The position numbers and the translations under genes were made by a program. The notes beneath the pieces were generated by a model. It was not told where the DNA came from, did not search any database, and worked only from the letters and a program-made list of their open reading frames with translations. Below, in pieces: positions 14,385 to 37,730 of a stretch of 64,000 nucleotides of DNA (positions are counted from its first letter, which is position 1; each line of letters starts with the position of its first letter). Source of the DNA: a virus; the IMG/VR virus record IMGVR_UViG_3300027777_000023, positions 124,001 through 188,000 of that record; one strand, 5' to 3'.

Positions 14385-15077
14385 ATGAGCCTAAGTAAAC
14401 AAGAAAAAATAACTAAATTAAAAGAATATTTGCGAAACATGAAGTTGGACGCAGGTGTGATGGGTAGAACTATGGGCACGCAAAGTTCGTTTGTTACTCC
14501 GCAAATCATGCTGGATGCCTCTAAAAAATTGCTTAATGTGTTCAGCCGCAAAGAGGCTCCAGATGATCGGGATAATGTGGTGTTTTCTAAATTTCTTGGA
14601 CCTGAGGATTATCTTAAAGAACATATCGAACACGACGCAGGTAAGGTACAATTCAAAGCTAAAAGTAAACTAAGGCAGAAACGTAATCTTAGCTGGTTGC
14701 ATGCCGGGTTCTTTACACCTCAAGTTAAAAGTGTGTTTGTTGGTAATAGCCTTGCCCAAAACATCGAAGGCGTTAATCCTATGGAGCAGTATATGCTGGC
14801 CCATAAAGTAACGAAAATGGGTATGGGAGGGATTGGAAGCACCGAAGCTATCCCAGACAGTTCTCGAGAAGTTAACGAGAGTCAGTTTGGTTTGCTGGAT
14901 CCTATCCAAACAGTAGAGGCGACTACTATCGGTGTGGTGAACTTCTTTGTGCACAATATCCGTAAAGGTGCTGACGGTAAACTGTATAGGGAGGTAATTG
15001 ACAACAGTACAGGGAAGCACGTATGGATCGACCATCAAGAGTTTTTAAGCTCTACGATTGACGTACCTGAGCACTAA
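14385..15077 (+). CDS. RNA polymerase beta subunit, middle fragment
   Basis: 230 aa. The segment DDRDNVVF aligns with beta's DDIDHLGNRR. NPMEQYMLAHKVTKMGMGG aligns with NPLSE..HKRR.SALGPGG, and the following ESQFGLLDPIQTVEATTIGVVN matches the HYGR.CPIETPEG.NIGL region that lines the fork loop/rifampicin pocket. The fragment carries no catalytic residue alone and must assemble with the other RNAP pieces. The segment starts about where the beta-N fragment at 20062-20721 ends, although it lies 5 kb away on the other strand. The upstream ORF extension is out of character and the ATG at 14385 is preferred. Its 3' end overlaps a convergent gene by 4 nt. Confidence 0.82.
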   Translation: MSLSKQEKITKLKEYLRNMKLDAGVMGRTMGTQSSFVTPQIMLDASKKLLNVFSRKEAPDDRDNVVFSKFLGPEDYLKEHIEHDAGKVQFKAKSKLRQKRNLSWLHAGFFTPQVKSVFVGNSLAQNIEGVNPMEQYMLAHKVTKMGMGGIGSTEAIPDSSREVNESQFGLLDPIQTVEATTIGVVNFFVHNIRKGADGKLYREVIDNSTGKHVWIDHQEFLSSTIDVPEH

Positions 15078-15547
15078 CGTTGAATTGATGGGTCTAATAA
15101 ACCCTGCACCCAAATGCGTTCTGATTCTTCAGCACCAGGTACACGGTTTTCGTAATATAATATACAGTAAACTTTTCTTGTTCCATTATTAGTTACCGTA
15201 AAACCTCCATCATATTTTTCTAGAGCAAATAGCCCGTTGGATGTAACGTACTGTAAGCCTATTTTAAAGACTACTCCGTATGAACAATCGGGTATATCAA
15301 TATTAAATTTTTCCTTAAAAGTGCAGGCGTCCATAGAATAATTGCCGCGCGGCACGCCACCAAAAATTGTAATATTGTCCCTCGCGGGAACATCTTCCGC
15401 CAAAGCTGCTGCTGTCAGATAACTTTCGGTACTTGGATCATAGGTCTGTAATAGAAACGTGTATACCTCCTCTTCTTCAAGGTGACCATAAATCGTGCTG
15501 ATATCTATAGATATAGATCCACCGCAGTCGCCAAATAGTACAATCAT
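15074..15547 (-). CDS. Hypothetical protein of the repeat-protein unit
   Basis: 157 aa, beta-rich, beginning MIVLFGDCGGSISID; has four Cys and many Tyr. No family recognised. It follows the 781-aa repeat protein by 4 nt in the same direction, so it may be its partner or chaperone. Its 3' end overlaps the RNAP beta-mid gene by 4 nt, tail to tail. Confidence 0.65.
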   Translation of the reverse strand: MIVLFGDCGGSISIDISTIYGHLEEEEVYTFLLQTYDPSTESYLTAAALAEDVPARDNITIFGGVPRGNYSMDACTFKEKFNIDIPDCSYGVVFKIGLQYVTSNGLFALEKYDGGFTVTNNGTRKVYCILYYENRVPGAEESERIWVQGLLDPSIQR

Positions 15548-15551
15548 AAAA

Positions 15552-17897
15552 TTATTCTGGCTCAGTCATTAGTACGTAAGCAGTCTTTTGTGTGCCGTCA
15601 ACACACACGCTGATCTGCTGGAAAGAAACTTGCTTGCCTTGCGGAGGCGTCAAATCAGCGTAGCCTCCGTCCGATGTTGTGATGGTTACATTTTCGCCGT
15701 CCATTTTTACAGAAAATCCTGACGGTGATGTTACCTCCATTGTACCATTACTGCCATCCAGATTGACATAACCGCCACCTGCACCGGTTGCATTAATTTC
15801 TCCTCGTTCAGCATCCAGTGTCACTACGTTCCCGCCAGTATTAGTTACAGTGATCTTGCCGTTTTCCGCATCCAGCAGTATGGTATTGTTTGCATCTGCT
15901 ATTGTCAACCTAGGTCCAGTGGCGTCGTAGTGAAATTTGTTATAACCGTTAGCTGTCTCAAATATTATATCCTTGGTGTTGATATCTGCACGAAAATACG
16001 TACCATCCCCATATCCTTCCGTCTCGTTTAACTGAATTGCACCGCATTCTACTGTTGAAGAATTGTTGTAATCATCACTCAAGTGAACTTTTTCAGGTCT
16101 CAAATACAATTTACAGGTGTCGTCGTTAGCCTGTATGCCGGCATCAGGCGTTATTAAAAGTCCATAGCTGGTGACCTGCATCATGACTGTGTAATCGGTC
16201 TCACTGCAGCCAGTAGGCAGAATACTATCTGTGTATATAGTATGCATGCGCATCTTTTTCTCACACATATGTATATACGGAGGGCATCGTATGTTTTCGC
16301 AGCAAGGCCGTGGCGGAATTTCGATCATATCCACAAACAACGATTTAAGTGTTAGCGATCCACATCCAACACCTCCACCTCCACCTCCACCACCACCACC
16401 TCCACCTCCACCACCACCGCCAGATACCAGCGAAAGCACACCACCACTTAAACTTAATTGGAGTCCTCCATCAATATTTACTACACTCGTACTTACAGCA
16501 CTCACAGCGCATCCCACGCTGCCCAGATCAAAGTTCATATCATCGAGCTTTATCTTGAGTGACTGGCTACATGCTCCGTCTGACCTAGGGGCACCACCAC
16601 CACTAAAACTAACTGTACCTCCAAGCGCCTGAGACTGTCCTCTGTTATTTAGCTTAACTGTAACTGTCCCCGGGTCCAATTCAGCAGACATACCCATAGA
16701 ACCACAACCAGAAAAGTCTGCACCGCCAGATAATTCAATTCCACATAAAGCGCCATCGCTATTTGCTTTTGCAGAAAGCTTTAGATTATTTTTTTTAACG
16801 ATAGGTCCAGTAAGATTAACTCCACCTGTTACCTCGATACCGGAGCAGCCTGAAAACTCCAGATCTCCACCAAGCGAAAGACCGCAACCACTACTTACAG
16901 GCGTTAACTGTAAGGTGTTCTTTTTTACAATATTTCCTCTTATATTTAAACTGTTGTTGGCTGTTACTTCCTGACAACCATTTATCTCCCAATCTCCGTC
17001 AATACTAAATCCGCAGTTTGGTGTAGTGTTGACGTTTATTGTTTGAGAAGATTTTTTAACTGCTGTGCCGTGTATGTTTAAATTTGCTGCCGCCGTGAAA
17101 CTGGCGCAAGCATCGATATCCAGCAAGCCCTGGATGGATAGTGCGCAGTCTGGTGTAGAGTTTGGCGTAACCTTCCAGTCACTTTTTTTAATGCTTTGTC
17201 CCTGTGTTGTGACAGAGATCTTGGCATCAAAACTTTCACATGCGTCAAATTTTTGAAGTGCAATGAGTCCGCCTAGTGTGATTCCGCAATCTGGTGCCGA
17301 TGTGGACCTAAGCGTTATATTAGAGGCCGAGCTTATACCCTCACCAAACACTATATTTGAGACTGCTGAAAATGTCTCACAGGCATCCACATTAATATTA
17401 CCTATCAGCACAGTTCCACAGTCAGGAGCACTCGACGGTGTCAAGGTTAATGAACCTTCAGCCGCACCATTAAAAGTTACAGTGCTGGAACTTGTGAAGG
17501 TCTCACATGCATTAACCGCCAATAATCCGGACAATGTGATGCCGCAGTCACCTAGACCTGAATCTCCGGTCGTGGGACCTTTAGGAGATAGCACCAAATA
17601 ACTATTTTTAGTGGCGTTTGTTGTCTGTATGTTTACATCGGCCGAAAGATGCTCGCACGCCAAAAATTTAAGGTTGGGTGGATTGTATACCGGAGGTAAT
17701 GGTATTACATCAGGAAAAGAAACGCTGCATGCCTCAAGCAAAGGCAACAAAGGTTTGACAGGTATGCTTAAAGTTGACGGTGGAGGTAAAGCACAACTAG
17801 CTGGTTGGTCAGCAGGAAGTACAGGAACATACTCAGCAGAAAATTCGGAACTATCACCACCCAGGTGTATTGTAGTTGGGTCTATTTTTGGCGCCAT
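15552..17897 (-). CDS. Large Cys-rich repeat protein with poly-Gly linker, probable virion appendage
   Basis: 781 aa. After a Pro-rich N-terminus come about seven repeats of roughly 40-45 residues, each with a DCG(I/L)xLxG turn and a later ACExF-type Cys, suggesting a disulfide- or metal-stabilised beta-solenoid. A run of 17 glycines follows, then a Cys-rich patch (CCENIRCPPYIHMCEKK) and a C-terminal region of short beta repeats (LDAENGKITVTN, LDAERGEINAT, LDGSNGTMEVT) like those in phage spikes. Receptor-binding or appendage role is inferred from this architecture. First base of its start overlaps the stop of the upstream membrane gene. Confidence 0.7.
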   Translation of the reverse strand: MAPKIDPTTIHLGGDSSEFSAEYVPVLPADQPASCALPPPSTLSIPVKPLLPLLEACSVSFPDVIPLPPVYNPPNLKFLACEHLSADVNIQTTNATKNSYLVLSPKGPTTGDSGLGDCGITLSGLLAVNACETFTSSSTVTFNGAAEGSLTLTPSSAPDCGTVLIGNINVDACETFSAVSNIVFGEGISSASNITLRSTSAPDCGITLGGLIALQKFDACESFDAKISVTTQGQSIKKSDWKVTPNSTPDCALSIQGLLDIDACASFTAAANLNIHGTAVKKSSQTINVNTTPNCGFSIDGDWEINGCQEVTANNSLNIRGNIVKKNTLQLTPVSSGCGLSLGGDLEFSGCSGIEVTGGVNLTGPIVKKNNLKLSAKANSDGALCGIELSGGADFSGCGSMGMSAELDPGTVTVKLNNRGQSQALGGTVSFSGGGAPRSDGACSQSLKIKLDDMNFDLGSVGCAVSAVSTSVVNIDGGLQLSLSGGVLSLVSGGGGGGGGGGGGGGGGGVGCGSLTLKSLFVDMIEIPPRPCCENIRCPPYIHMCEKKMRMHTIYTDSILPTGCSETDYTVMMQVTSYGLLITPDAGIQANDDTCKLYLRPEKVHLSDDYNNSSTVECGAIQLNETEGYGDGTYFRADINTKDIIFETANGYNKFHYDATGPRLTIADANNTILLDAENGKITVTNTGGNVVTLDAERGEINATGAGGGYVNLDGSNGTMEVTSPSGFSVKMDGENVTITTSDGGYADLTPPQGKQVSFQQISVCVDGTQKTAYVLMTEPE
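16371..16421 (-). repeat. Triplet repeat encoding 17 consecutive glycines
   Basis: Seventeen in-frame codons, read as ACC/TCC/GCC triplets on the + strand (GGT/GGA/GGC on the coding strand), inside the large repeat protein. A flexible hinge between the solenoid and the C-terminal spike-like part, and a likely site of length variation by slippage. Confidence 0.9.
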
Positions 17898-18241
17898 TAA
17901 AGCATTCTATTAAATACCAGATAGAAAAACAATATCAAAGGTGCAGACACCAATGCGACAACCAATTGAGGAGCCACACACAGACCCGCAACTAATCCTA
18001 ACCAAAAGCTCAAACAAACAGGACAACAAATTAACCTAACAAAAAAACTATCTCGATAGTATTCATACAAAAAATCTGTATAGGTGCCAGCATATCCCTC
18101 ACCGTGCAGCTTATTGTACTCTGATATGTGTAGAATGCGTGACATACCACACAAAGTTATATATTCTGTAAACGCATTAGTGCGCAACCACACCAACAAA
18201 AAATAACCTAGAGCAAGGGATATGCAGACGAGCTCAAACAT
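17897..18241 (-). CDS. Small membrane protein, DUF1360-like
   Basis: 114 aa starting MFELVCISLALGYFLLVWL. Two or three hydrophobic helices; the motif RLICCPVCLSFWLGL resembles the CP.CLSFW.G signature of DUF1360 membrane proteins, found in phages and bacteria with no known function. The ATG at 18241, 1 nt after the upstream stop, is preferred over a longer frame running into the coiled-coil gene. Confidence 0.7.
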   Translation of the reverse strand: MFELVCISLALGYFLLVWLRTNAFTEYITLCGMSRILHISEYNKLHGEGYAGTYTDFLYEYYRDSFFVRLICCPVCLSFWLGLVAGLCVAPQLVVALVSAPLILFFYLVFNRML

Positions 18242-18242
18242 A

Positions 18243-18503
18243 TTAAACCTGTGATTGTTCGTTAGTGTTTTCCATTTCAGTAATTCGCTTTTCAAGCTCA
18301 ACCAATAAGTTTCGTTGAGCAATGGTGGCAATACGCATGTTTTGTAGGTTGTTGACCTGCTCACTAAATTTGCGAATATTTTCTTCCTGCTCTTTCAGGT
18401 TGGTTTCAGCCTGGCGAAGACCGTCAGCGATTAAAAGCAAGGATACATGCTTAGACTCAGTTTCGGTTTCGGTCACAATGGGTAATTCTACTCGTTCACT
18501 CAT
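18243..18503 (-). CDS. Small coiled-coil protein
   Basis: 86 aa, almost entirely helical with heptad character (LRQAETNLKEQEENIRKF, LLVELEKRITEMEN). No family recognised. Lies between another small coiled-coil gene and a membrane protein gene, all on the minus strand; it may oligomerise with the 52-aa product upstream. Confidence 0.7.
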   Translation of the reverse strand: MSERVELPIVTETETESKHVSLLLIADGLRQAETNLKEQEENIRKFSEQVNNLQNMRIATIAQRNLLVELEKRITEMENTNEQSQV

Positions 18504-18521
18504 AATTTTATCGGTTTAGTT

Positions 18522-18680
18522 TTATTCTAGTGCGTCGTTTTCGGTTAGCAAATCTTTTATCTCGGCCTGGATTCTTTTTACTTCTTCGTTATGGGCTTTG
18601 ACAGTATCCCGTTTGTTCTTCTTGGCAATTTCAAGTTCAACCACAAGGTTGTAGATTTTTTCTTCTTTAGTTGTTTCCAT
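18522..18680 (-). CDS. 52-aa coiled-coil protein
   Basis: METTKEEKIYNL to ENDALE; short Lys/Glu-rich helix with heptads. Ends 18 nt before the next gene in the same direction and begins after an A/C-rich leader (GATCAACAAGAACAAC...). Too short for most gene calls, but composition and position match its neighbour. Confidence 0.6.
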   Translation of the reverse strand: METTKEEKIYNLVVELEIAKKNKRDTVKAHNEEVKRIQAEIKDLLTENDALE

Positions 18681-18769
18681 GTTTACTGCGCTAAGTTGTT
18701 CTTGTTGATCGGTTGAGTACCTAGCGTTATATCACTATAACATTTCTAAAAAGGTACGCAACAATTTTT

Positions 18770-18808
18770 AACAAAAAAAGAGGTGCGACGAATAAACATC
18801 GCACCTCT
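18770..18808 (-). terminator. Intrinsic terminator after the 222-aa gene
   Basis: Stem AGAGGTGCGA / TCGCACCTCT (18779-18788 with 18799-18808), followed on the minus strand by a T run. It lies 29 nt beyond the stop of the gene at 18838. Confidence 0.92.
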
Positions 18809-18837
18809 CTTATAACTAGACTGATTTAACCTGATGG

Positions 18838-19506
18838 TTAGGATTGCAACGCAGCCAACTGCGCGGTGGTCAACGCCGCACGCTGAGTGGTCGTCAAGGC
18901 CGCCACCTGAGTGGTCGACAATGCAAAGAGCTGTGCCGTAGCAAGGACGCTGAGATCGCTTGTTGTGATAGCTGCAACTTCTGCGGTGCTGAATGCTGCG
19001 ATTGTGCTGGTAGCAAGCGCGACGGCCTGCGTTGTTGTGATCGTGGTGACGTTTTGTTTAGCTACCTGCACTTCTGCATCAGCAGCTGCTACTGTGGAGG
19101 ATGCGAGTACAACTGTGAACAGTTCTCCTTCGCCAGAGTTATCTCCAGTGGTGGAACCTACACGACCTGTGCCGCGCACGTATTCAATAATATAGCTAAG
19201 TTCTACCGTACCAGTGACACCGGTAGGAATTTTTAGCGTGAACGGACTGTTCTTGTCAGAGCCAGGATATACATCAAGAACCGCAGGAGCTTGAGGATCG
19301 TGGGCGACTACAGTTGCACGAATAATGCTCTTGGAAGGAACGTCGCTGAACACGATGGAATCTCCCAACGCATAGTCTGTGGGAGAGATAACTCCATAGG
19401 ATACCTGAAGCTTTTCATAACGCGAACTCAATAGTCCGCTAATGTCATAGCCGCCGTTTGTGCGGTCCGTATCTACTGCTACTTTTTTTACTTTAATTGT
19501 TGCCAT
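18838..19506 (-). CDS. Probable virion decoration/fibre protein with TTAQ-AAL repeats
   Basis: 222 aa. The N-terminal 115 residues look like a beta domain with a YPG.D turn. The C-terminal 70 residues are a run of 11-residue repeats of the form ALTT(A/T)Q(V/L)AAL, e.g. ALSTTQVAALTTTQRAAL, likely an Ala/Thr-rich helical or solenoid stalk. Similar repeats occur in surface-exposed bacterial and phage proteins. Flanked by its own candidate promoter and terminator, so it is a single-gene unit, consistent with a highly expressed structural protein. Exact role unknown. Confidence 0.65.
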   Translation of the reverse strand: MATIKVKKVAVDTDRTNGGYDISGLLSSRYEKLQVSYGVISPTDYALGDSIVFSDVPSKSIIRATVVAHDPQAPAVLDVYPGSDKNSPFTLKIPTGVTGTVELSYIIEYVRGTGRVGSTTGDNSGEGELFTVVLASSTVAAADAEVQVAKQNVTTITTTQAVALATSTIAAFSTAEVAAITTSDLSVLATAQLFALSTTQVAALTTTQRAALTTAQLAALQS

Positions 19507-19539
19507 AATAATTTTCTATTTTTTGTTTGTTGTTTACTG

Positions 19540-19567
19540 CATATAGCAATAGGCACCCAAGCCGCAA
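19540..19567 (-). promoter_or_regulatory. Candidate promoter for the 222-aa gene
   Basis: On the minus strand TTGCGG (19562-19567), 16-nt spacer, TATATG (19540-19545). The TTGC start of the -35 matches those before the tail tube, neck and sheath genes. The rest of 19507-19657 shows no gene. Confidence 0.4.
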
Positions 19568-19657
19568 CAGGAACTTTTGGTAAATTCCCAGAGGATCGTT
19601 GATCTACTCCATCGCTACGTTAATTATTGTCTATAGTTCTAGGTTAGGCAAGACAAA

Positions 19658-20062
19658 TTATATCCATTCTGGGAAAGATACTCGATTTGGTCTGGGCTCA
19701 AGCCGATAGTCAATAAATAGCTCTTCATCTTTTCTTATATCTCTGTTAGCGATTATCTTATGCATTGTTAGCTTCCAATCGCAGTTGGGTTCTCTTGAGT
19801 GGTTGATATAGCTGAACTTGCTATACTTATCGCTAGTGATGCACTCTTCATCATTCAGCATCACGTACGGATTTTTACGAATTTGCTCCTCAGTCAAATC
19901 AACATATCTTGTTTTGTACCAATCTTTTGGAAACATTCTGTAGTCTATCACTAGATCATCTTTGCTTATGTCTTTTGCAGCAAATAAACCAAACCCAGCC
20001 ACAGGGCTATGTTTCACATAGGTGAAAGGTGCATCATCGTTGTCTATGATTATCTCGTTCAT
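19658..20062 (-). CDS. SET-domain protein (lysine methyltransferase-like)
   Basis: 134 aa, a near-minimal SET domain. Residues 23-28 GFGLFA match the SAM-binding N-motif (G.GLFA), N87-H-S-R-E-P-N-C94 matches the NHS..PNC motif that forms the knot and cofactor site, and E113-E-L-F-I-D-Y119 matches the GEEL..DY motif with the catalytic Tyr. SET proteins transfer methyl groups to protein lysines. There are no visible pre- or post-SET Cys clusters. Its start overlaps the stop of the RNAP beta-N gene by one nucleotide (TAATG), so the two are translationally coupled. Target unknown; RNAP or host nucleoid proteins are guesses. Confidence 0.85.
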   Translation of the reverse strand: MNEIIIDNDDAPFTYVKHSPVAGFGLFAAKDISKDDLVIDYRMFPKDWYKTRYVDLTEEQIRKNPYVMLNDEECITSDKYSKFSYINHSREPNCDWKLTMHKIIANRDIRKDEELFIDYRLEPRPNRVSFPEWI

Positions 20063-20721
20063 TAGTCTTTAATTAGTAGGCTATAGAGTTTGTCTATCTC
20101 GTCTCCTTTATACTGCACACGATTAGCGTTGTAGATTTGCTCTCCCCATGCAGCTTTAATTGCTCCGTCAGAGATGCCTAGATCATGAAGGATGCCGTAC
20201 AATTTAACCTGAGAATTTCTAATCATTAAGATAAACAACTGTTTGTCAGGAAGAAACAAAATACGACCACTCTGACCTGTACGAGCCTCAGGATTGATAT
20301 GTGCTTCAGGGATACCGTCTTGACGAATCCTTGAGTATATTCCAGGAAGAAGTCTTTGCTGATTTACGCTTTCGTATTCTGAGCCATTATAAATAACAGT
20401 ATTATGATTAGTAACATATGGTATGTGAGCTATAGTGGTGCTCTTACTTTCCAGAACTTTACCAGAATTTTTGTGTACCAGGTCTATGGTTCCTTTCAAA
20501 GCTACCGTGAGATCCTTTTTATCTAGTACAGCTTGTTTCTGGTGTGTGGTCGTGATATGAGGCAAATCCATCTTCAGATCTCGTACCTGAAGCTTGTGGT
20601 CCGTTGTTTCGATAGCGTTTATTTTTTTACCGAACGCAGCGACTGCTGTATCAAACAGCATATGCCTCAACTTCTCAGGATCGAAAAACGATCTTGTATT
20701 TTCTGGAGGTTTGCTTTGCAT
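20062..20721 (-). CDS. RNA polymerase beta subunit, N-terminal fragment
   Basis: 219 aa. The middle reads IAHIPYVTNHNTVIYNGSEY then NQQRLLPGIYS, aligning with beta's I..[28 protein letters not shown], and the next stretch (GRILFLPDKQLFIL) with the SARIIPYRGSWLEF strand. The C-terminal part (LGISDGAIKAAWGEQIYNAN) fits the region before the beta middle piece. It would form the protrusion/lobe base of the enzyme. Short compared with cellular beta: the large lobe insertions are reduced. Coupled to a SET-domain gene downstream and, on the upstream side, to a structural-type gene by 1 nt, which hints at packaging in the virion. Confidence 0.8.
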   Translation of the reverse strand: MQSKPPENTRSFFDPEKLRHMLFDTAVAAFGKKINAIETTDHKLQVRDLKMDLPHITTTHQKQAVLDKKDLTVALKGTIDLVHKNSGKVLESKSTTIAHIPYVTNHNTVIYNGSEYESVNQQRLLPGIYSRIRQDGIPEAHINPEARTGQSGRILFLPDKQLFILMIRNSQVKLYGILHDLGISDGAIKAAWGEQIYNANRVQYKGDEIDKLYSLLIKD

Positions 20722-20722
20722 T

Positions 20723-22549: not shown

Positions 22550-22550
22550 A

Positions 22551-23822: not shown

Positions 23823-23823
23823 G

Positions 23824-24204
23824 TTAATCTTTCTTTTCTTCTTTTGTACCGTAGATGATAAATACTCTAAAGCTTCCCTGCGGGGTCCAGGTGTCTTTCC
23901 AGAGAGTGATCATATACTTTTTGTTATTCATTAATTCGTTAAGCATGTCCTGATCTTTCTGCTGTTCAGGATCAAGAATGATGTTCTTGAATGTGAACGC
24001 ACTCATGTCTTGCGCTCTGGGACGCTTTTTAATTCCTTTTGCTGTTTCAAAAGCGTCAATGACTGCCTCAGGATCAAATCCTTTGTTGGTTACCTCATTG
24101 CGCACATTGCGAGGCGTGACTGAAGCGAGCAAGTCTGCTGCGCTAGAGCCAAAGTCAAAATGTTCTGTTTCTCTTGGTTCAATTCCTTTGTTAAGTAAGT
24201 CCAT
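23824..24204 (-). CDS. Hypothetical protein
   Basis: 126 aa, charged, with a basic stretch (KGIKKRPRAQ) and a beta-like C-terminus (SFRVFIIYGTKEEKK). Its start lies 14 nt inside the upstream gene, so translation is coupled. No family recognised. Confidence 0.6.
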   Translation of the reverse strand: MDLLNKGIEPRETEHFDFGSSAADLLASVTPRNVRNEVTNKGFDPEAVIDAFETAKGIKKRPRAQDMSAFTFKNIILDPEQQKDQDMLNELMNNKKYMITLWKDTWTPQGSFRVFIIYGTKEEKKD

Positions 24205-29320: not shown

Positions 29321-29520
29321 ACGTGCCTGTACTAGATATATACTTTGAGAGAGGTTAAAGGTCACTATGTTTTTGCTTGTGGGTACTAGAGAGAATTTAT
29401 AGGGTGAGTCTTTAGTTTAGAGAAGGGGATTGGTTAGTGAGTTAGTAGAGGGATAAGGGAGGGTATATAGAACAACTATCAACAGTATAGGGAGTACATG
29501 GTTTTTTCGGGAGGTGCTTG

Positions 29521-29549
29521 TTGCTTCGCTGGGACAGTTGTGTTATAGT
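29521..29549 (+). promoter_or_regulatory. Promoter of the RNAP fusion unit
   Basis: TTGCTT (29521-29526), 17-nt spacer, TATAGT (29544-29549), with a TG one base before the -10 (extended -10). Predicted start about 29556, 15 nt before the ATG at 29571. The region from 29366 to here is a divergent intergenic stretch with no gene seen. Confidence 0.6.
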
Positions 29550-29570
29550 TCCCTTAACGTAACCCTACTT

Positions 29571-29906
29571 ATGCGCCCCATAGAAAAGATAAAAAGTATT
29601 ACCATACGGAACAAACGCTACAAGTTTGTGGTAAAAAAACTGCGACATGCCAGAGGCAGAACAGAACACCCAGACACTAAAAACAAGACAGTGTATATAG
29701 ACTCTAGAGAAAAAGGCAAAGCGTTGCTGTCCACGCTTATTGATGAGCTCATACATTGCGCTATCTGGGATATACAGAACGAGATCGTGGATGAGATCTC
29801 TGACGGCATGGCCGATGTGTTGTGGCGCTGTGGACTGAGGTTTACAGACGAGACGGATGAAACCCTGGAAAGCACAACATCAACATATGTCTCTAAAAAC
29901 CTTTAA
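29571..29906 (+). CDS. Metallopeptidase-like protein with altered HExxH
   Basis: 111 aa. The segment STLIDELIHCAIWDIQNEIVDEISDGMADVLWRCGLRF resembles a small phage/bacterial zinc-peptidase-like family in which the pattern is LIHE.LHA..WDL.E....E....IA..LWR.GWR. Here the first His of HExxH is Asp (D58-E-L-I-H62), so zinc catalysis is doubtful. The ATG at 29571 is preferred to an upstream TTG. It heads the RNAP fusion unit and overlaps the next start by 20 nt. Confidence 0.65.
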   Translation: MRPIEKIKSITIRNKRYKFVVKKLRHARGRTEHPDTKNKTVYIDSREKGKALLSTLIDELIHCAIWDIQNEIVDEISDGMADVLWRCGLRFTDETDETLESTTSTYVSKNL

Positions 29907-32883
29907 ATTTGCCCTAGTTCACGGCAAGCTTACAAAAGTGCCAAAGTCGCAGAAGTCGAAATATAGCATGATCGACCCTTCGCACTTCTTCAGCCCTGTA
30001 ACTAATCTTATTCCAGGACTCAGCTCAGTATCAGGTGCACGCGTACTAATCGGTGACAAGTCTTCGCTGCAGGCCATGACACTCACCAATCGTGAGGCTC
30101 CTCTGGTGCAGGCAGCGCCCAAAGCCGGAGGCGGAGACAGTTTTGCAAAGCAGTTTGGTAAACTTGTGAGTATTTCTGCAAAGACTGACGGCGTGGTATC
30201 TAAAATCGAGGACGACCACATGATCGTCAAAGACTCGGCAGGTAAAGAACATCATCACGACCGCTACAATAATTACATCATAGGGCGTGAAAGCTATATT
30301 CACCATACACCTAACGTAAAGGTTGGCGATAAAGTTAAAGAAGGACAACTACTGGCAACATCCAACTACTCTGACCATGAAGGCACATTATCATTAGGGA
30401 TGAACCTTAAAACAGCCATCATGCCGTTCAGATCTTTGAATTTCGAAGATTCTTTGGCCATATCTGAGTCAGCAGCTAAAAAATTGGAAGGGGAGCAGCT
30501 TATTCCTGTGCGTATGGAAATTGCTAGAGGGATCTCTACCGACAAAGACAGGTACATCTCTTTATTTCCAAACAAATACTACAACGACCAGCTCTCACAC
30601 ATAGACAGTCATGGTGTGGTGAAGAAAGGTACCGTATTGAAACACGGAGATCCGATCATCCTAGCTTTTCAACCTAAAACACTAAAGTCCCTTGATATCC
30701 AGCTAGGCAAACTGTCCAAAGTTATTCGTAACGCTTTCTCAGACATTTCAGTGGCCTGGGAGTATGAGTATGAGGGTGTGGTGACGGATACTTCAGCCAG
30801 TGGCGGTCTTGTGGCTGTGACAGTAAAAACAAAAAGACCCATGAGTCATGGCGACAAGCTCAACATGCCTTTTGGTGCAAAAGGAGTAGTAAGTATTGTT
30901 CCAGACACGCAAATGCCTCAAGGCGAAGACGGCAAACCTGTGGATGTGTTGTTGAATTCCATGAGTATCACTAGTCGTGTTGCTCCGGGTTTGGTGAATG
31001 CAATTGGTTTGGGTAAGCTGGCCCAAAAGCAGGGCAAAGCACTTACAATGACAGGTTTCACCGAAGGTTCAGCTGTCCAGAAAGTGATTGATATTTTGGA
31101 CAAGCACGGAATAAAAGATACCGAGAAGCTTTATGATCCTTTGTCTGGTAAGCACGTTGAAGTACTCACAGGTCCTCTGTATTTTAATCGTTTGCACCAT
31201 ATCGCAGAAGACAAGATATCCGCAAGATCGGCGGCCACGACGTATGATATCAATATGCAGCCTTCAAAGGCAGGCTCGCACGAGAAAGCTAAGCGTATAG
31301 GTAATTTGGCAACAACTGTTGCCCTATCCAACGACGCCAAAGCAGTGCTCAGAGATATTGCCACAGTCAGAGCAACAAAGAACGACGACTTTTGGACAGC
31401 TTTGAAGCTCGGTTTGCCGCCACCTCCACAAAAAGTACCGTTCATATTTGATAAATTTATAGGTCACCTCAAGGGGGCTGGTGTTAATGTACAGCAGGAT
31501 GGATCTAAATTTCATATCATGCCGCAGACAGATAAAGATATTGTGGCGATGTCTCAGGGAGAAATTAAAGAACCTCTAACGTACAAAATTAGAAAAGATT
31601 CTCTTATCGAAGAAGAACACGGGCTTTTTGATCCGTCGTTGGTGGGTATCCATGGCGATAATTTTAATCATATAAGCTTAAACCATAGAATTCCTAATCC
31701 TATGGCCGAGGATCATCTGCGCAAGCTTTTGAAGATGACCAAAAATGCGTACGAGGAAGCAGCCGCATCAGGCTCGATCGAGAAAGACCTTAAAAAGATC
31801 AACGTTGACGAAAAGATCGCAGAACTCAAAAAGGTCATAGGGCTAAAAAAGAAAACCGGTAGAGACGACGCAATTAAATCTCTCAGCTTTCTAACGATGC
31901 TAAAGCAGCACAATCTAAAGCCTGAGGATATGTTGTTGTCTAAGATCCCGGTGATTCCTGCGCAATATCGCCCTGTTATGGTTCAGGGGGATCAGGCACT
32001 GACTGCAGACGTTAATGAGCTATATAAGGATTTAATCATGGTGAATAAATCTTTTGGGGCAGCCAAAGATTCTCCTGACGTTGATCCGGAACACCTCAGT
32101 ACAGCAAAGAAGCAGATATATAATGGTGTTAAAGCTGTTTTTGGTTTAGGTGGACCTATCAACCAGAAGAGTATTGAGAAAGGCTACAAAGGATTATTGG
32201 CTTCTGCTCTGGGTTTGCAGGGAGGCTCGGCCAAAGAAAGTATGTTTCAGGCAAAGGTGGTTAATAAGCCTATTGATCTTGTAGGTCGAGCTGTTTTGCT
32301 GCCGGACTCTAATCTAGATCTAAATCAAAGCAGTATTCCTCAATCTGTAGCGTGGAGCATTTATTCCCCTTTTGTGATTCGGCGTATGGTTCGCATGGGA
32401 ATTCCAGCAACGAAAGCCAGAGAATATCTAGAACACAAACACCCATTAGCGTTACAGGCACTGCATGAAGAGATGGCTGATCGTCCAGGAATCGTTACGC
32501 GAGATCCCCAGCTGTCTAAATACAACTTCCAGGGAATGTATTTGAAGATGAATCCTGATCCCAAGGATTTCTCTATCAAACTAAACCCTCTCGTGTTTAA
32601 GGGATATGGGGCGGACAGTGACGGCGATCAACTCAACGTACAGGTTCCTGCATCAGAAGAAGCAAAGGAAGAAGTCAAGGAGAAGTTATTGCCGGAAAAG
32701 AACTTAATTTATCACCGCACTTTCTCACCAATTTACACTCCCTCGAATGAAGCTGCAACAGGCTTATTTGCTGCTAGTTTTGAGGATAAGAAAAATCAAC
32801 CAAAGAAATATCACTCAGAGCAAGAAGTAGTTAGAGACTTTCTTGCTGGTAAATTAGATATTGGTGACAGGGTAGAAATATAG
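29887..32883 (+). CDS. RNA polymerase beta C-terminal / beta' N-terminal fusion
   Basis: 998 aa. The beta part has FRSLNFEDSLAIS (E187, D188, as in YNFEDAI.IS), GDK324-LNMPFGAK332-GV with the two conserved lysines at the correct 8-residue spacing, RLHHIAEDKISARS matching LKLHHLVDDKIHARS, and a beta-type end around residue 535. The beta' N-terminus follows at once (MSQGEIKEPLTY...HGLFDPSLVG), then IPVIPAQYRPV, the GRAVLLPDSNLDLNQSSIP double-psi segment, and ADSDGD at 909-914 carrying the three catalytic Asp. The N-terminal zinc ribbon of beta' is absent. ATG 29887 chosen; 29857 is possible. Needs the other three fragments to make a core enzyme. Confidence 0.92.
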   Translation: MSLKTFKFALVHGKLTKVPKSQKSKYSMIDPSHFFSPVTNLIPGLSSVSGARVLIGDKSSLQAMTLTNREAPLVQAAPKAGGGDSFAKQFGKLVSISAKTDGVVSKIEDDHMIVKDSAGKEHHHDRYNNYIIGRESYIHHTPNVKVGDKVKEGQLLATSNYSDHEGTLSLGMNLKTAIMPFRSLNFEDSLAISESAAKKLEGEQLIPVRMEIARGISTDKDRYISLFPNKYYNDQLSHIDSHGVVKKGTVLKHGDPIILAFQPKTLKSLDIQLGKLSKVIRNAFSDISVAWEYEYEGVVTDTSASGGLVAVTVKTKRPMSHGDKLNMPFGAKGVVSIVPDTQMPQGEDGKPVDVLLNSMSITSRVAPGLVNAIGLGKLAQKQGKALTMTGFTEGSAVQKVIDILDKHGIKDTEKLYDPLSGKHVEVLTGPLYFNRLHHIAEDKISARSAATTYDINMQPSKAGSHEKAKRIGNLATTVALSNDAKAVLRDIATVRATKNDDFWTALKLGLPPPPQKVPFIFDKFIGHLKGAGVNVQQDGSKFHIMPQTDKDIVAMSQGEIKEPLTYKIRKDSLIEEEHGLFDPSLVGIHGDNFNHISLNHRIPNPMAEDHLRKLLKMTKNAYEEAAASGSIEKDLKKINVDEKIAELKKVIGLKKKTGRDDAIKSLSFLTMLKQHNLKPEDMLLSKIPVIPAQYRPVMVQGDQALTADVNELYKDLIMVNKSFGAAKDSPDVDPEHLSTAKKQIYNGVKAVFGLGGPINQKSIEKGYKGLLASALGLQGGSAKESMFQAKVVNKPIDLVGRAVLLPDSNLDLNQSSIPQSVAWSIYSPFVIRRMVRMGIPATKAREYLEHKHPLALQALHEEMADRPGIVTRDPQLSKYNFQGMYLKMNPDPKDFSIKLNPLVFKGYGADSDGDQLNVQVPASEEAKEEVKEKLLPEKNLIYHRTFSPIYTPSNEAATGLFAASFEDKKNQPKKYHSEQEVVRDFLAGKLDIGDRVEI

Positions 32884-32886
32884 CTG

Positions 32887-32914
32887 TTGACATCCCACCT
32901 ATCCTTTGTATACT
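32887..32914 (+). promoter_or_regulatory. Promoter for homing endonuclease gene
   Basis: TTGACA (32887-32892), 16-nt spacer, TATACT (32909-32914), then GGAGGG and ATG at 32921. The predicted start coincides with the ATG, so this promoter would give a leaderless mRNA, while GGAGGG would serve readthrough transcripts. Confidence 0.6.
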
Positions 32915-32920
32915 GGAGGG

Positions 32921-34351
32921 ATGCTAGACATTCAAGGAACACTATCGCGGTTTGGTTACGACCCAGGAACGCTAAAGAGATACTCAGAGCGTCCTGTGCT
33001 GATATTATGCGATTATTGTGATAAATCGCACGAAACACTGTATTGCAGATACGCCAATAATAATAACATGACCTGCGGCAGCAAAGACTGCAGGAACAAG
33101 TTAACCGAGAAAACCTGTCTCGTTAAGTATGGTACAAAGCACCACCTAGCTTCTGAGGAGGTGAAGGTTAGACGAAAGCACAGCAATATAGCTAAGTATG
33201 GTGTTGCGCATATCGCTCAAGTGGTTGAAATACGTGAGAAGATAAAGGAATCTAATGTGTGTACTTATACAGAAAAAGACGCAGACGGTAATTCCGTGGT
33301 TGTGGAAAAAATCAAAAAAACACATAGAGCCAGGTACGGTGTAGATTTCGCCATCAACAGAGCAGACATTCGAGAAAAGGCCAAAGCTTCAACCAAACTC
33401 AGTTGCGGTGTTGAAAACCCATTCAACTCATCTACGTGTATGCTGAAAGCAGTGGAAACTAAAATAGCGCGTTACGGTACAGCTCATCCAAGTAATTGTT
33501 ATGGTAAGGCGCAGCAAGAATTGGCAGATTGGCTTTTGGCAATTTCAGGTAAAGAGTTCAAAGCAGATTTTAAAATACTCAAAGGAAAAGAAATTGATTT
33601 GTATAATGAGGAGCTGCGGTTAGGTGTAGAGTATTGCGGCTTATATTGGCATACAGAAGATTCAAGAACACCTCGCGATAGGAATTATCATATAGATAAA
33701 TTTAAAAGAGCTAAATCTCAGAATGTAAGACTTATCACAGTGTTTGAAGATGAGTGGGTATATAGACAGACTCAGGTTAAGAATTTTTTACGCTCTGTGC
33801 TAGGTGCAAATGAACATGTGGTTTATGCTAGAAAGTGTAGTGTGCGTGAGATAGTCGGCAGAGATGGTAGAGCTTTTTTTGACGCGCACCATATTCAAGG
33901 AGCCAACAATCTTGGTAAATATTTTGCAGGATTGTTTTATGAAGACAATCTATTGGCTGTGATGAGTTTTGGTCGCCACCATCGAAAATCTTCTCAATTA
34001 GTGTTGGATCGCTTTGCCGTTAGAGATAATTATAGCGTTGTCGGCGGAGCATCTAAACTATTTAAGTTTTTGCTCAGCTTGAGTGGTGTTGAAGAAGTTG
34101 TTAGTTGGTCAGACAACCGTTGGAGTTGGGGAGACGTGTACGTTCAGTTAGGGTTTCAATTAGAGGAATCTCTGGGACCGGACTACAGCTATGTAGATTT
34201 TTCCCACAATTGTCGAAGGTTATCCAAACAGTCTCAGCGCAAAAGTAAAACTAATTGCCCAGCAAACAAGACCGAAAAAGAATTTTCTAACTCTAAAAAC
34301 TTGCATAGATTGTGGGATTGCGGCAAGCTGAGGTGGATGTTTCGCAAATAA
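32921..34351 (+). CDS. Vsr-like (EDxHD/PD-D/EXK-type) homing endonuclease
   Basis: 476 aa. The N-terminal part has CDYCDK...CGSKDC (zinc-finger-like) and repeated K-Y-G-V motifs, likely DNA binding. The centre holds EIDLYNEELRLGVEYCGLYWH, then YHIDKF and LITVFEDEW, matching the Vsr-like nuclease fold of phage homing enzymes such as I-Bth0305I. The C-terminal third (FFDAHHIQGAN..., VLDRFAVRDNYSVVGGASKL) is the accessory domain usually found with it. It lies 37 nt after the beta'-N stop at the point where beta' is split. ATG 32921 with GGAGGG is preferred over an upstream TTG. Confidence 0.82.
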   Translation: MLDIQGTLSRFGYDPGTLKRYSERPVLILCDYCDKSHETLYCRYANNNNMTCGSKDCRNKLTEKTCLVKYGTKHHLASEEVKVRRKHSNIAKYGVAHIAQVVEIREKIKESNVCTYTEKDADGNSVVVEKIKKTHRARYGVDFAINRADIREKAKASTKLSCGVENPFNSSTCMLKAVETKIARYGTAHPSNCYGKAQQELADWLLAISGKEFKADFKILKGKEIDLYNEELRLGVEYCGLYWHTEDSRTPRDRNYHIDKFKRAKSQNVRLITVFEDEWVYRQTQVKNFLRSVLGANEHVVYARKCSVREIVGRDGRAFFDAHHIQGANNLGKYFAGLFYEDNLLAVMSFGRHHRKSSQLVLDRFAVRDNYSVVGGASKLFKFLLSLSGVEEVVSWSDNRWSWGDVYVQLGFQLEESLGPDYSYVDFSHNCRRLSKQSQRKSKTNCPANKTEKEFSNSKNLHRLWDCGKLRWMFRK

Positions 34352-34377
34352 TCTTTATTTTTACGTTGTTTTAAGTT

Positions 34378-34578
34378 ATGCTTGAGGAAAATATATGGTT
34401 ACAGCTGAGTGATGACGAAAAATTCACTGAGCTGGAGACCTATTTAAACGAGCTTATTGAGATAGAGAAAGGTTGTCATGAACTAAGTAATACTGAGGGT
34501 CAGGGCAAACTCCCAAACATTAAAAAAACTTTAAACGACAAAATCTTTAAAATAATAGAACTGGAAAACGCAACATAA
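34378..34578 (+). CDS. Small acidic helical protein
   Basis: 66 aa, Glu/Leu-rich helix (DDEKFTELETYLNELIEIEK). One nt before the Gln/Pro-rich gene. No family recognised. Confidence 0.65.
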   Translation: MLEENIWLQLSDDEKFTELETYLNELIEIEKGCHELSNTEGQGKLPNIKKTLNDKIFKIIELENAT

Positions 34579-34579
34579 C

Positions 34580-35458
34580 ATGAAAATCTCAGAATTACTA
34601 GAAGACTACAGAAAGATTTCAAAAACAGCTAACGTCAAAAAGCTCACCAAGAAGGCGTTTATACCTAACCCTGACGTTATGGCTCAGCAGCAGCAAGCAC
34701 AACAACCTCAGCAAGGTGGTGCGCAGGGTCAGCCACCACAGCAAGGACAACCACAACCTCAGGGTGGCGGACAACCTCCGGCTCCTCAAGGCCAACCCCA
34801 GCCACCTCAAGCTCCTCCGCAACCGCCGCAGGCTCCGCAGCAACCTCAAGGACAACCGCAAGCGCAAGGTGGTGGTCCTATGGAACAGCTCATGGCGGAG
34901 GTTCAACAACTTTCCCCGGAAACACAACAACAGGTAGCTCCACTCATTCAACAGCTGCAGTCGATGCCTCCAGAGCAGCGAGACCAGCAAGCTATAGCAG
35001 TACTTCAGCAGCTCGAGGCACAACAACAACAGCAAGGCGCACCGCAGGGTGGAGGTATGGAGACGCAAGCCTCGATTGAAGATGAATATGCCGCAGCTAT
35101 GCAACAACAGGCTATGGGAGGTCAGCAAGGACAACCACAACCACCGCAACCGCAAGATATGCAACAGCAGGCCGCCCAGGACGCCGGTCAAGCAGAGGCT
35201 TCTGCGGTGGAAGCAAAGAATGAACTGGATAATGTGAAGGTCACCCTTACTGTGCGCGAACTTCTCGATTTGGTGGGCAAGGGCACTGCCACAGCATCAC
35301 TGCTCAAGGTCAAACAGCTTGCTGATACACATCAGCAGAAGATGGATCAGAGCAAACAAAAAGCAGACGCACAACAGCAACAGCAGACACAACAACAACA
35401 GCAAGACCAGCAGGGTATGATGGGTGGCGGAATTTACTCAGCACCGATGGGTAATTAA
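34580..35458 (+). CDS. Gln/Pro-rich low-complexity protein
   Basis: 292 aa. A helical, basic N-terminus (ISELLEDYRKISKTANVKKLTKKAF), about 80 residues of Q/P/G low complexity, an acidic helical patch (LMAEVQQLSPETQQQVAPLIQQLQ), more polyQ, and a short ordered segment (VTLTVRELLDLVGKGTATASLLKVKQL) before a Q-rich tail. Such proteins occur among virion components and could form flexible or phase-separating scaffolds; no family recognised. Located between the two beta' halves. Confidence 0.65.
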   Translation: MKISELLEDYRKISKTANVKKLTKKAFIPNPDVMAQQQQAQQPQQGGAQGQPPQQGQPQPQGGGQPPAPQGQPQPPQAPPQPPQAPQQPQGQPQAQGGGPMEQLMAEVQQLSPETQQQVAPLIQQLQSMPPEQRDQQAIAVLQQLEAQQQQQGAPQGGGMETQASIEDEYAAAMQQQAMGGQQGQPQPPQPQDMQQQAAQDAGQAEASAVEAKNELDNVKVTLTVRELLDLVGKGTATASLLKVKQLADTHQQKMDQSKQKADAQQQQQTQQQQQDQQGMMGGGIYSAPMGN

Positions 35459-35469
35459 TTGTACATGAT

Positions 35470-35880
35470 ATGCTAGACCTAACCAAATTGGCCACCTATC
35501 TAGACTCGTTTGAGAAAGGTGACCCTAACTACGACAGGGCCTGCTTCATAAAGAGTAAGTTGGCTACTGATTTACAGGATCGCGAAACCATCAACAACGG
35601 AGAAGAAGATGATCTTACTGATAATGACATCACCATGGCTACTCCGGATCAACAATCCTCGAGTAATCAGGAAGGTGAGATAATGGATGGTGTTTTCCAG
35701 GAATTAGACGCACTAAATCAAATAAAAGAAGAAAAAGAGGAAATTAAGCTGGATCCTAGACAAGAAGTCACAAGAAACCCTAATCTTAATTCTGCCTCGC
35801 CTGAAGATTTTGGCAACAACAGCCTAAACACAAAACAAGCCACATTATTTCAAATACTGCAGAAAAAACTTAATAAGTAA
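35470..35880 (+). CDS. Acidic hypothetical protein
   Basis: 136 aa, Asp/Glu/Asn-rich and largely disordered, with a helical start (LDLTKLATYLDSFEKGDPNYDRA) and helical end. Stop and the beta'-C start share a base (TAATG), so the two are coupled. No family recognised; an RNAP assembly partner is possible but unproven. Confidence 0.65.
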   Translation: MLDLTKLATYLDSFEKGDPNYDRACFIKSKLATDLQDRETINNGEEDDLTDNDITMATPDQQSSSNQEGEIMDGVFQELDALNQIKEEKEEIKLDPRQEVTRNPNLNSASPEDFGNNSLNTKQATLFQILQKKLNK

Positions 35881-37730
35881 TGGCTACCACAACAGTAGGA
35901 CATATTCTGTTGAAGTTTTATTTGCCTCAGCAGTTTCAGCATCTGGTACATGATAAAATACTCGATAAAAAGGGTATATCTGTGTTGTTTGCTGAATTGG
36001 CTGAAAAAGCTCCACAGGAGTATTCAAAGATAGTATCCGACCTCACTAAACTAGGATTTGAAATAGCCACAAGACAGGGGACATCTCTGACGTTGCGAGA
36101 TCTAGTAAGCCCTATCGACAAAGATAAATTGTGGGGCGGTTTTGATGCATTCAAAGATAAGGTTGAGGCCACCAAAGACTCTCGCGCAATTAAAGACAGC
36201 AAGATCTTTGATCATTATAACACTATGATGAGTAATGTCGAAAAAGACATTCTAGCTCAGGGATTGAAAGAAAATAAATCTCTAGCGAAGATTATTTTGG
36301 CAGGCTCTCGCGGTTCTCCAGCACAGTATCGAGGAACTATAGCCACTCAAGGCATTGTTGTTGATGCTGAAGGAAAACCTAAGATGGATATTCCTATTAA
36401 AAGCTCATACGCTGAAGGATTGACGCTTCCTGAATATCTAACAACATCTTTTGGAGCTAGAACTGGTGAAGTATTAAAGAAAATTTCCGTGGCGCAGGGA
36501 GGATACGGATCAAAACAATTTGCACGAGCACTCATGCCATTACAGATTGTTGAAGCTGACTGTGGTACTCTTAACGGTATTGATATACTTGTTTCAGACC
36601 GCGAGTCTATTGGTGCACATCTTTCCAAGGCTGTTGAAGGCTACAACAGAAACAACGAGGTTACGGCCAAAATGCTCAACGACCTCAAGTCAAAGGGCGT
36701 CAAACATATTTTCATTCGGTCACCGATGACTTGCCAGTCAAATAAGAAACATCATTCTGGCGGCTTATGTCAGATGTGTGTGGGTAGGCGAGAAAAAGGT
36801 ATGGCAGCTATGGATAGTTATATTGGTCTTGTGGCAGGAACCGCCGTGGCTGAACCACTCACAGAAAGTGCTATGAAAGCCCGACATTCAGGGGGAGCAG
36901 CCACATCACTAGGAGGTCAGCAGGGGTTTAAACTTATTAACCAGTTGGCAAATGTTCCAAAAACATTTATCAGCAAAGCACCGTTAGCTCAGGCTGACGG
37001 TTTTATCACCAAGCTTGAACCTGCTGCGGCTGGAGGGCACTTTATCAGTGTTAACGACGAAGAACATTACATAGGTCTAGGACAAGATCCAGTAGTTAAA
37101 CACGGCGACCGCGTAGAACAAGGCCAAGTATTAAGTACCGGACTCATAGATCCTAGAGACGTTGTGGAACGCAAGGGTATTGGGGAAGGTCGAAAGTATT
37201 ATATGGAGGCAATGAAAAAGGCCTTTGACGATAGCGGACTTGGCGTTAATCGCCGAAACTTTGAACTTATCGCAAAAGCTGCAATCGATCATGTGAGGGT
37301 CACAGATCCGCACGGGCTAGGTAATTATCTGCCTGACCAGGTGGTATCATATTCTGCGATTGAAAAAGATTATGTGCCCAGAGAAGATTCAAAGCAGATG
37401 CGTGTAGATCTGGCATATGGCAAATACCTCGAAAAACCGGAACTTCACTATACTATAGGCACTAAAATAACTTCACAGGTGGTAGCAAAGCTGAAAGAGC
37501 ACGATATTGAGTCTGTTATTGTTCATGATGAGCATCCGCACTTTGAGCCTGTGATGGTTCGTCTGGTTGATATCCCTGAACATAACGAAGATTGGATGGC
37601 TGTGTTGAACAGCACTAACTTAGCCAAGCGTTTTGTCAACATGGTCAACAGAGGAGCAACTTCTGACACTGCCGGTCCACACCCTGTACCTGGTCTTGCT
37701 TATGGTAAAGGTTTTGGTGAAAAAGGCTAA
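35880..37730 (+). CDS. RNA polymerase beta' subunit, C-terminal fragment
   Basis: 616 aa. Begins ATTTVGHILLKFYLP, matching the TTVGR..FN..LP point in cellular beta'. Then TKLGFEIATRQGTSL (LGF.YAT.SG.S), the F-loop AGSRGSPAQYRG near residue 143, the bridge helix FGARTGEVLKKISVAQGGYGSKQ, a zinc site of C228 (ADCGT), C285, C297 and C300, and the trigger loop AEPLTESAM332-K-A-R-H336-SGG matching GEPGTQLTMRTFHTGG, keeping Met and His. The C-terminus matches the beta' jaw/clamp end. Completes the core started by the fusion protein; must associate in trans. Confidence 0.92.
   Translation: MATTTVGHILLKFYLPQQFQHLVHDKILDKKGISVLFAELAEKAPQEYSKIVSDLTKLGFEIATRQGTSLTLRDLVSPIDKDKLWGGFDAFKDKVEATKDSRAIKDSKIFDHYNTMMSNVEKDILAQGLKENKSLAKIILAGSRGSPAQYRGTIATQGIVVDAEGKPKMDIPIKSSYAEGLTLPEYLTTSFGARTGEVLKKISVAQGGYGSKQFARALMPLQIVEADCGTLNGIDILVSDRESIGAHLSKAVEGYNRNNEVTAKMLNDLKSKGVKHIFIRSPMTCQSNKKHHSGGLCQMCVGRREKGMAAMDSYIGLVAGTAVAEPLTESAMKARHSGGAATSLGGQQGFKLINQLANVPKTFISKAPLAQADGFITKLEPAAAGGHFISVNDEEHYIGLGQDPVVKHGDRVEQGQVLSTGLIDPRDVVERKGIGEGRKYYMEAMKKAFDDSGLGVNRRNFELIAKAAIDHVRVTDPHGLGNYLPDQVVSYSAIEKDYVPREDSKQMRVDLAYGKYLEKPELHYTIGTKITSQVVAKLKEHDIESVIVHDEHPHFEPVMVRLVDIPEHNEDWMAVLNSTNLAKRFVNMVNRGATSDTAGPHPVPGLAYGKGFGEKG

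Follow-up and report, generated by a model that had tools for sequence, protein, structure and literature searches.

A phage record in which the whole of RNA polymerase beta and beta' is encoded once, as four genes on both strands

The present study concerns a 64,000-nucleotide stretch of DNA (the window), bases 124,001-188,000 of the 189,602-base IMG/VR virus record IMGVR_UViG_3300027777_000023, from a virus of bacteria. We found that the two large subunits of RNA polymerase (RNAP), beta and beta', are present in it whole and once, as four genes, the first of which lies on the other strand. It is highly probable that these genes specify a phage core RNAP of four chains that is sigma-dependent, arose when an ancestral single chain was split, and probably travels in the virion. 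In the order of the polypeptide, the four genes are:

20062..20721, minus strand: beta-N, the N-terminal piece of beta, 219 residues, recognised by profile, sequence match to Arash gp206 and AlphaFold2/Foldseek.
14385..15077, plus strand: beta-M, the middle piece of beta, 230 residues, ending at about E. coli beta 620.
29887..32883, plus strand: a fusion of beta-C and beta'-N that begins near E. coli beta 620-635, runs through the remainder of beta and stops in beta' at about 550.
35880..37730, plus strand: beta'-C, 616 residues, with a Pfam match to Rpb1_5 (E 4e-15) and a weak one to Rpb1_3 under its cut-off.

A profile of 2,081 positions was built from nine related RNAPs, with the window's own clade left out, and run against the 301 window frames of at least 60 residues. 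Exactly four frames matched this clade-free profile, and the fifth-best reached an E-value of only 0.27. Beta-N covers positions 6-218 (independent E-value 8e-41), beta-M 224-451 (5e-48), the fused chain 464-1461 (1e-276) and beta'-C 1464-2076 (5e-141). The gaps between successive pieces are therefore 5, 12 and 2 positions, with no overlap; on a second profile, which included the window, beta-N (1-221) and beta-M (215-455) share a few positions. Since each part of the RNAP is covered once, without overlap and with small gaps, the tiling is far beyond chance. A preliminary description of this DNA had proposed a four-gene split of unusual partition with a beta/beta' fusion, and had expected contiguous coverage in a search with profile hidden Markov models; Pfam and the profile search located the four frames where it had put them and in its order, each part once. 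No second RNAP set was found with the clade-free profile in eight stretches making up the rest of the record, which may be incomplete (best full-sequence E 2.3). In E. coli numbering, alignment places the first break within the beta lobe (229-423), the second near beta 620-635 and the third near beta' 550. The beta 229-423 stretch corresponds to only about 65 positions of the family profile, on which the two extra breaks in beta lie at about 218-224 and at 451-464.

The single pieces were recognised by independent means. The open frame of beta-M (14301-15077, plus strand) matches Pfam RNA_pol_Rpb2_3 above the cut-off (E 3e-5), and beta-M itself matches gp206 of phage Arash (E 3e-22); we take it to be the fork/rifampicin region of beta. 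Beta-N, which gave no RNAP match in Pfam, lies in a region of the family profile corresponding to about E. coli beta 51-229, and over residues 12-206 it resembles the start of Arash gp206 (E 3e-17). Modelled alone by AlphaFold2 (47 alignment rows) it folds well, with a predicted local distance difference test score (pLDDT) of 87.8, though a predicted template modelling score (pTM) of only 0.51, and every one of the 50 matches listed by Foldseek was either a chain of an RNAP complex or the beta1-beta2 domains of RNAP (best E 9e-11). The low template modelling scores (0.32-0.40) and high root-mean-square deviations (rmsd, about 9-11) of these matches indicate that its two sub-domains are placed differently. 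The frame of the fused gene (29857-32883, plus strand) matches Pfam Rpb2_6 (3e-47), Rpb1_1 and Rpb1_2; relatives support a start at 29887, as first described, 29857 being merely an earlier in-frame ATG. The model of the fused chain (49 rows) had a pLDDT of 85.3 and a pTM of 0.76, and its beta half matched solved beta chains with a Foldseek E-value of 2e-37 and, by VIA, with Z up to 37.8 over 446 aligned residues (rmsd 3.0). The fold-search list for this model was filled by beta chains and the beta' half was identified by sequence, phmmer with the fused protein reaching beta' chains at E 2e-34. In beta'-C, alignment to cellular beta' marks the regions that we take to be the bridge helix, zinc cluster and trigger loop.

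Residues were compared in an alignment of the window with four cellular RNAPs. All three DxDGD aspartates are kept; the motif reads GADSDGD and lies on the fused chain, as do the equivalents of E. coli beta K1065 and K1073. The equivalents of beta R678, beta R1106 and beta' R425 and the bridge-helix region are also kept, and the trigger loop retains M and H, with K in place of R. The trigger-loop positions and the roles of the compared catalytic residues are those we presume for the cellular enzymes. With respect to catalytic residues, the complete active centre anticipated in the preliminary description is present. The four cellular enzymes are invariant at 632 columns, and the window has the same residue at 227 of these (15 of 43 in beta-N, 8 of 43 in beta-M, 84 of 204 in beta-C, 60 of 187 in beta'-N and 60 of 155 in beta'-C). 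The stretch beta' 63-142, which presumably holds a zinc finger in cellular enzymes, is mostly without counterpart in the family profile.

Assembly, activity, promoter use and packaging of the enzyme we infer as follows. The four genes would give four proteins that fold together in trans as one cell-type RNAP core; assembly in trans is proposed because the genes lie on opposite strands with separate starts and stops, and no intein or intron was detected. Beta-N and beta-M would complete beta on the beta-C half of the fused chain, and beta'-C would complete beta'. The fused chain would supply the catalytic aspartates and the beta lysines, and beta'-C the bridge helix and trigger loop. With phage sigma-like factors, the enzyme would then transcribe phage promoters. 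The record holds a homologue of the Arash sigma factor gp10 (frame 4,761-5,486, E 4e-14; Sigma70_r3 E 2e-8) and, near 62.6 kb (62560-63150), a second sigma-like gene, which matches sigma regions 2 and 4.

Virions probably carry the enzyme and inject it, as seems to be the case for the Arash homologue. According to the virion protein data of the Arash report, the highest number of spectra from purified particles was that for gp206 (3,516, with 128 unique peptides), with 1,210 for gp216 and 467 for sigma gp10, and gp206 and gp216 are among the five proteins named for most spectra (PMC10585845). The window's phage has homologues of all three, and packaging is supported, by analogy, because gp206 and gp216 occur in purified virions. 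A real four-part RNAP that stays out of the virion and is made in infection for middle or late genes is unlikely, although it is the alternative that survives best. It is favoured by the single RNAP set found in the record and by the phiKZ-like non-virion RNAP (nvRNAP), which, as summarised in one account of these enzymes, comes in at least four pieces (PMC7598289). However, gp206 and gp216 are top-spectra proteins of Arash, with a gp10-type sigma there too (PMC10585845, virion data), and beta'-C lies just 5' of virion genes in both phages.

The four-chain, probably virion-carried enzyme is favoured further by conservation. Compared with four relatives, the ratio of nonsynonymous to synonymous differences (pN/pS) is 0.18-0.21 for beta-N, 0.12-0.17 for beta-M, 0.15-0.17 for the fused chain and 0.16-0.18 for beta'-C, with synonymous divergence (dS) saturated; by this measure all four pieces are under purifying selection. 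Beta-N and beta-M were found in 12 of 14 IMG/VR records, the window's own included, as separate frames and on opposite strands in all 12; the contigs of the two records without them stop 2.8 kb and 0.1 kb short of the fused gene. A scan for beta-M gave 23 loci, of which two were cut by contig ends and all 21 others were stand-alone open reading frames (ORFs). Where these loci reached beta-N it was on the other strand (14 of 14, partly the same contigs as the IMG/VR records). In L151 (relatives are numbered with L), 49% identical in the fused piece, the same splits are seen, with beta-N and beta-M on opposite strands and the fused gene on the strand of beta-N, not of beta-M. The identity and completeness of the pieces, their conservation, the purifying selection on them and the nested phylogeny given below we regard as established. 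The extreme fragmentation might speak for a decayed remnant, in which beta-N and beta-M are relics and the host enzyme is used, but the similar purifying selection in four pieces, the retained catalytic residues and the same splits in so distant a relative as L151 make this very improbable.

For the origin of the four-chain enzyme, the relatives are informative. In Arash gp206 (1,525 residues) and D69_0261 of Vibrio phage D69 (1,527 residues), beta-N, beta-M, beta-C and beta'-N are in one ORF and beta'-C is separate. Candidate relatives in IMG/VR numbered 188, at least 392 and at least 573 in three scans, from which 77, 80 and 78 loci were kept. In type A, common among the loci kept, all of beta and beta' is in one ORF (46 loci from the first scans and 72 of 77 new ones of the last; the other 5 were cut by contig ends, and the 78th, L106, was already known and also cut). 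There are at least 94 distinct single-ORF beta-beta' proteins of this type from viral contigs. The 72 ORFs of the last scan have 2,023-2,911 residues (median 2,093; 8 of 72 exceed 2,350), and the chain without insert has about 2,000-2,190. Type B, with 82 loci, is split after the double-psi beta-barrel (DPBB) of beta', and the sequence available around the locus included the separate beta'-C for 68 of them and not for 14. In type C, represented by 10 loci and 8 tips, the chain is broken once more near profile position 1095 (about beta' 173), the second piece being found in 8 of the 10 loci. Type D is the window's form.

There were 171 aligned loci with more than 60% of profile columns 481-1380; 25 were dropped as more than 98.5% identical, leaving 146 tips (B 72, A 38, D 13, C 8, unclassed 11, cellular 4), a tally that places L069 under D, though it is an intron-bearing type B, and L189 under B, though its contig end cuts it. 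The 146-tip tree was made by FastTree and a tree of 47 tips hand-picked from these by IQ-TREE, with cellular RNAPs as outgroup. L147, L148 and L150, labelled phages, resemble bacterial contigs and L149 is a Salmonella chromosome contig; these served as outgroup only. In the cellular-rooted trees type A was basal and paraphyletic. The type B clade, with C and D inside, had an ultrafast bootstrap (UFB) of 94 in the 47-tip tree and only 0.56 with FastTree. Both the D clade (4 tips in the 47-tip tree) and D plus its type-B sisters had UFB 100 and FastTree 1.0. L092 branches just outside type B; its beta-beta' frame, like that of L146, ends near the DPBB (profile 1351-1388), and the remainder was not found within about 8 kb downstream in either. 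As judged from these trees, D is derived from B, independently of the cellular root, and by the same comparison the fusion is not peculiar to this phage, the beta breaks being later fissions. A single chain is the likely ancestral form, and the relatives suggest an enzyme that was once a single giant chain and was later broken stepwise. The window's genes would thus go back to a single-chain beta-beta' polymerase through successive gene fissions, the first after the beta' DPBB (common to Arash and D69) and two more within beta, with rearrangement afterwards. Among the relatives, L177, L181, L186 and L205 have beta'-C frames of 1,024-1,397 residues compared with the usual 600, with an insertion of about 375 residues in L181 and L186. 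In four sequences kept as phage records (OR844998, MT836236, CAKLQF020000005 and AFYI01000006) the RNAP regions resemble bacterial chromosome.

The neighbours of the polymerase genes include the following:

19658..20062, minus strand: a SET-domain protein (Pfam SET, E 1e-16), itself no part of the RNAP, whose start overlaps the stop of beta-N (TAATG).
32906..34351, plus strand: a homing endonuclease directly 3' of the fused gene (phrog_3339, E 4e-91).
37807..62311, plus strand: a block of virion genes 3' of beta'-C, recognised by phmmer against Arash frames.

The virion block holds homologues of Arash gp218, gp222, gp226 (the major capsid protein), gp233, gp234, gp236 and gp238, and gp218, gp222 and gp226 are present in the Arash virion table (PMC10585845). 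Beta'-C lies just 5' of virion genes in the window and in Arash, where one helicase gene stands between. The preliminary description had three pieces adjoining virion-type genes; this was borne out for beta'-C only, the neighbours of beta-N, beta-M and the fused gene giving no clear match to a virion family. When other genes of the window were compared with PHROGs, 15 of the 20 submitted gave no match. The homologue of the Arash capsid protein (52114-53073) had no Pfam match at E 0.01, the capsid family of the mReC phages being PF07068. The homologue of Arash virion gp222 (45858-48473) carries an intein-like insert, with a Hint match (E 3e-10) and a LAGLIDADG-like match just under the cut-off. 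At 11952-12593, a NUMOD3 gene of the homing-endonuclease type lies between the large and small ribonucleotide reductase genes. The SET gene was considered as a fixed partner of beta-N and rejected, since it stands beside beta-N in some relatives and elsewhere in others. Likewise, the homing endonuclease was rejected as the cause of the beta' split, as the split is older, being common to Arash and D69, and no counterpart of the endonuclease was found in 15 compared loci, of which 6 cover this position.

As to how the breaks in beta arose, the D69-type gene of Vibrio phage D181 (96.6% identity in aligned bases) is interrupted after codon 514 by an insertion of 931 bases. By score this insertion is a group I intron (100.7 bits, E 6e-26), and it contains a gene with a homing-endonuclease annotation; D148 matches at nearly the same coordinates (coordinates only). 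The intron lies at profile position 507, about 40-50 positions past the M/C break of the window (455-470 on the same profile), and residue 26 of the C-beta ORF of Staphylococcus phage S6 aligns at position 500. Because both lie near the M/C break, this part of beta seems to have been broken repeatedly; no insertion exactly at the M/C break was seen in the relatives compared. Near the N/M break (profile 210-256), in-frame insertions occur in L153 (about 375 residues), L160/L161 (about 450) and L176/L182 (about 166). The insertion of L160, within about 10-20 profile positions of the break, holds a SET domain (Pfam E 3e-5), then a HAD-like stretch (by reading) and a 2H phosphoesterase domain. This SET domain was found by Pfam and not by phmmer with the window's SET protein, and its presence there, together with the SET gene overlapping beta-N in the window, is no more than suggestive. 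In addition, intein-size inserts are frequent in relatives at the beta' catalytic site and elsewhere, several of which we read as inteins, judging from their ends without profile search. In-frame polymerase insertions of about 130-375 residues were seen in L153, L176/L182, L206-L208, L212 and L217.

A gene family that attracts intervening sequences, such as the D181 intron with its endonuclease gene and the intein-size inserts, raises the thought that the pieces are joined after transcription or translation, by trans-splicing introns or split inteins. Yet Rfam gave no intron in 9-42 kb of the window (a single match was far under its family's score), and the four pieces had no match to Pfam intein profiles and no intein-like ends by eye. 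Each piece also has its own stop and a plausible start, the ATG of the fused gene standing at about the same point in most relatives listed, and joining is accordingly given very little credence.

Several points weigh against a virion-carried enzyme of four chains derived from one. The window derives from metagenomic assembly, and in beta-N and beta-M only one column each is kept across every compared sequence. Similarity of sequence and fold is no proof that the pieces bind. Arash particles contained 116 proteins, several enzymes among them, and the authors, where they discuss such enzymes, say that they may act early or merely remain in the preparation (PMC10585845). Furthermore, the root of the trees is the long branch to cellular RNAP and the deepest phage nodes have UFB of 29-65, so that precedence of the single chain is likely, not proved. 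An artefact of assembly or binning, for which only the metagenomic contig speaks, is hardly credible, as 11 other records, each with a different IMG/VR metagenome number, also have beta-N and beta-M as separate genes on opposite strands.

Among known systems, the nearest are Arash gp206 and gp216 and their counterparts in Vibrio phages D69, D181 and D148, with an orthologous beta-beta'N fusion and a separate beta'-C, split after the beta' DPBB; Arash also shares the virion genes after beta'-C and the gp10 sigma homologue. In Arash gp206 and D69_0261, however, beta is continuous with beta'-N, whereas the window's beta has two extra breaks, and D181 has an intron within beta. The Arash paper, in its naming of these genes, calls gp206 beta and gp216 beta' and mentions neither fusion nor split there (PMC10585845). 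The single-ORF polymerases of type A have the same beta-then-beta' order and are homologous over the full length, but are unsplit.

The phiKZ/AR9-type enzymes also have a beta' split after DPBB-A (the window's break is at about beta' 550, the catalytic aspartates at 460-464) and a split beta, the S6 C-beta ORF beginning near the window's M/C break. They differ in having two RNAP sets, where the record has one (nothing else below E 0.2), no beta/beta' fusion, where the window has beta-C and beta'-N in one ORF, and no sigma homologue, where the record has two sigma-like genes. In the sections dealing with phiKZ-like enzymes, the virion RNAP (vRNAP) is given at least five polypeptides and the nvRNAP at least four, with beta' split after DPBB-A, and intron mobility with later rearrangement is proposed for the splits (PMC7598289). 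Iyer et al, in their treatment of these enzymes, divide the beta of vRNAPs into three pieces, of which the last follows the catalytic domain, and regard the pieces as relics from before the last universal common ancestor (LUCA) (PMC7824862). This is a precedent for a three-piece beta, differently cut, since the vRNAP beta is cut after the catalytic domain and the window's extra break is before it.

Weinheimer and Aylward 2020 delimit the mReC phages by beta and beta' matches of at least 800 residues each, with NADxDGD (PMC7481178). Like the window's, this RNAP is close enough to cellular models to align; it is described, however, as beta and beta' subunits with NADxDGD, compared with GADSDGD and a beta in three pieces in the window. 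Some mReC enzymes may be of type A; by the sample numbers of the paper, no mReC contig was among the matches listed. The single-chain RNAP of crAss-like phages and YonO is, as stated in the same results, too divergent for cellular beta and beta' models (PMC7481178), whereas the window's pieces do match the Pfam models of both. Yersinia phage GN1 and Cobetia phage Carin-5 have homologous beta and beta', but as two separate, neighbouring, unsplit genes. Natural rpoB-rpoC fusions of Helicobacteraceae and Wolbachia likewise give a fused chain, but are cellular, with no split mentioned in the account of these fusions (PMC7483510). Neither a phage beta-beta' fusion having cell-type domains nor the present split was found described in the literature searched, whose coverage left out most subscription papers, and absence from print is not claimed. 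The known kind is thus the split phage RNAP; what is new is this partition, within a lineage whose single-chain form was not found described in that literature.

We put forward tentatively, as a wider picture that is possible rather than probable, that a large phage lineage, undescribed in the literature searched, carries a cell-type RNAP as a single beta-beta' chain, and that one clade shows its stepwise break-up, near the insertion and intron sites of sister lineages, into a four-chain polymerase complex that is packaged and injected as such. Two PHROGs of unknown function, phrog_24349 and phrog_25354, match the beta/beta' pieces over much of their own length, and the present sequences should make it possible to identify such viruses in metagenomic data. 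A natural four-chain core would reveal where beta tolerates cuts, and a virion RNAP made from separately encoded parts leads to the question of its assembly and injection. In the sources considered, the origin of split phage RNAPs is disputed between intron mobility with rearrangement (PMC7598289) and pre-LUCA pieces (PMC7824862). With unsplit, once-split, intron-bearing and three-times-split forms on one tree, this question becomes testable, and, if the reading given here is true, fragmented phage RNAPs would be secondary and not pre-LUCA relics, at least in this lineage.

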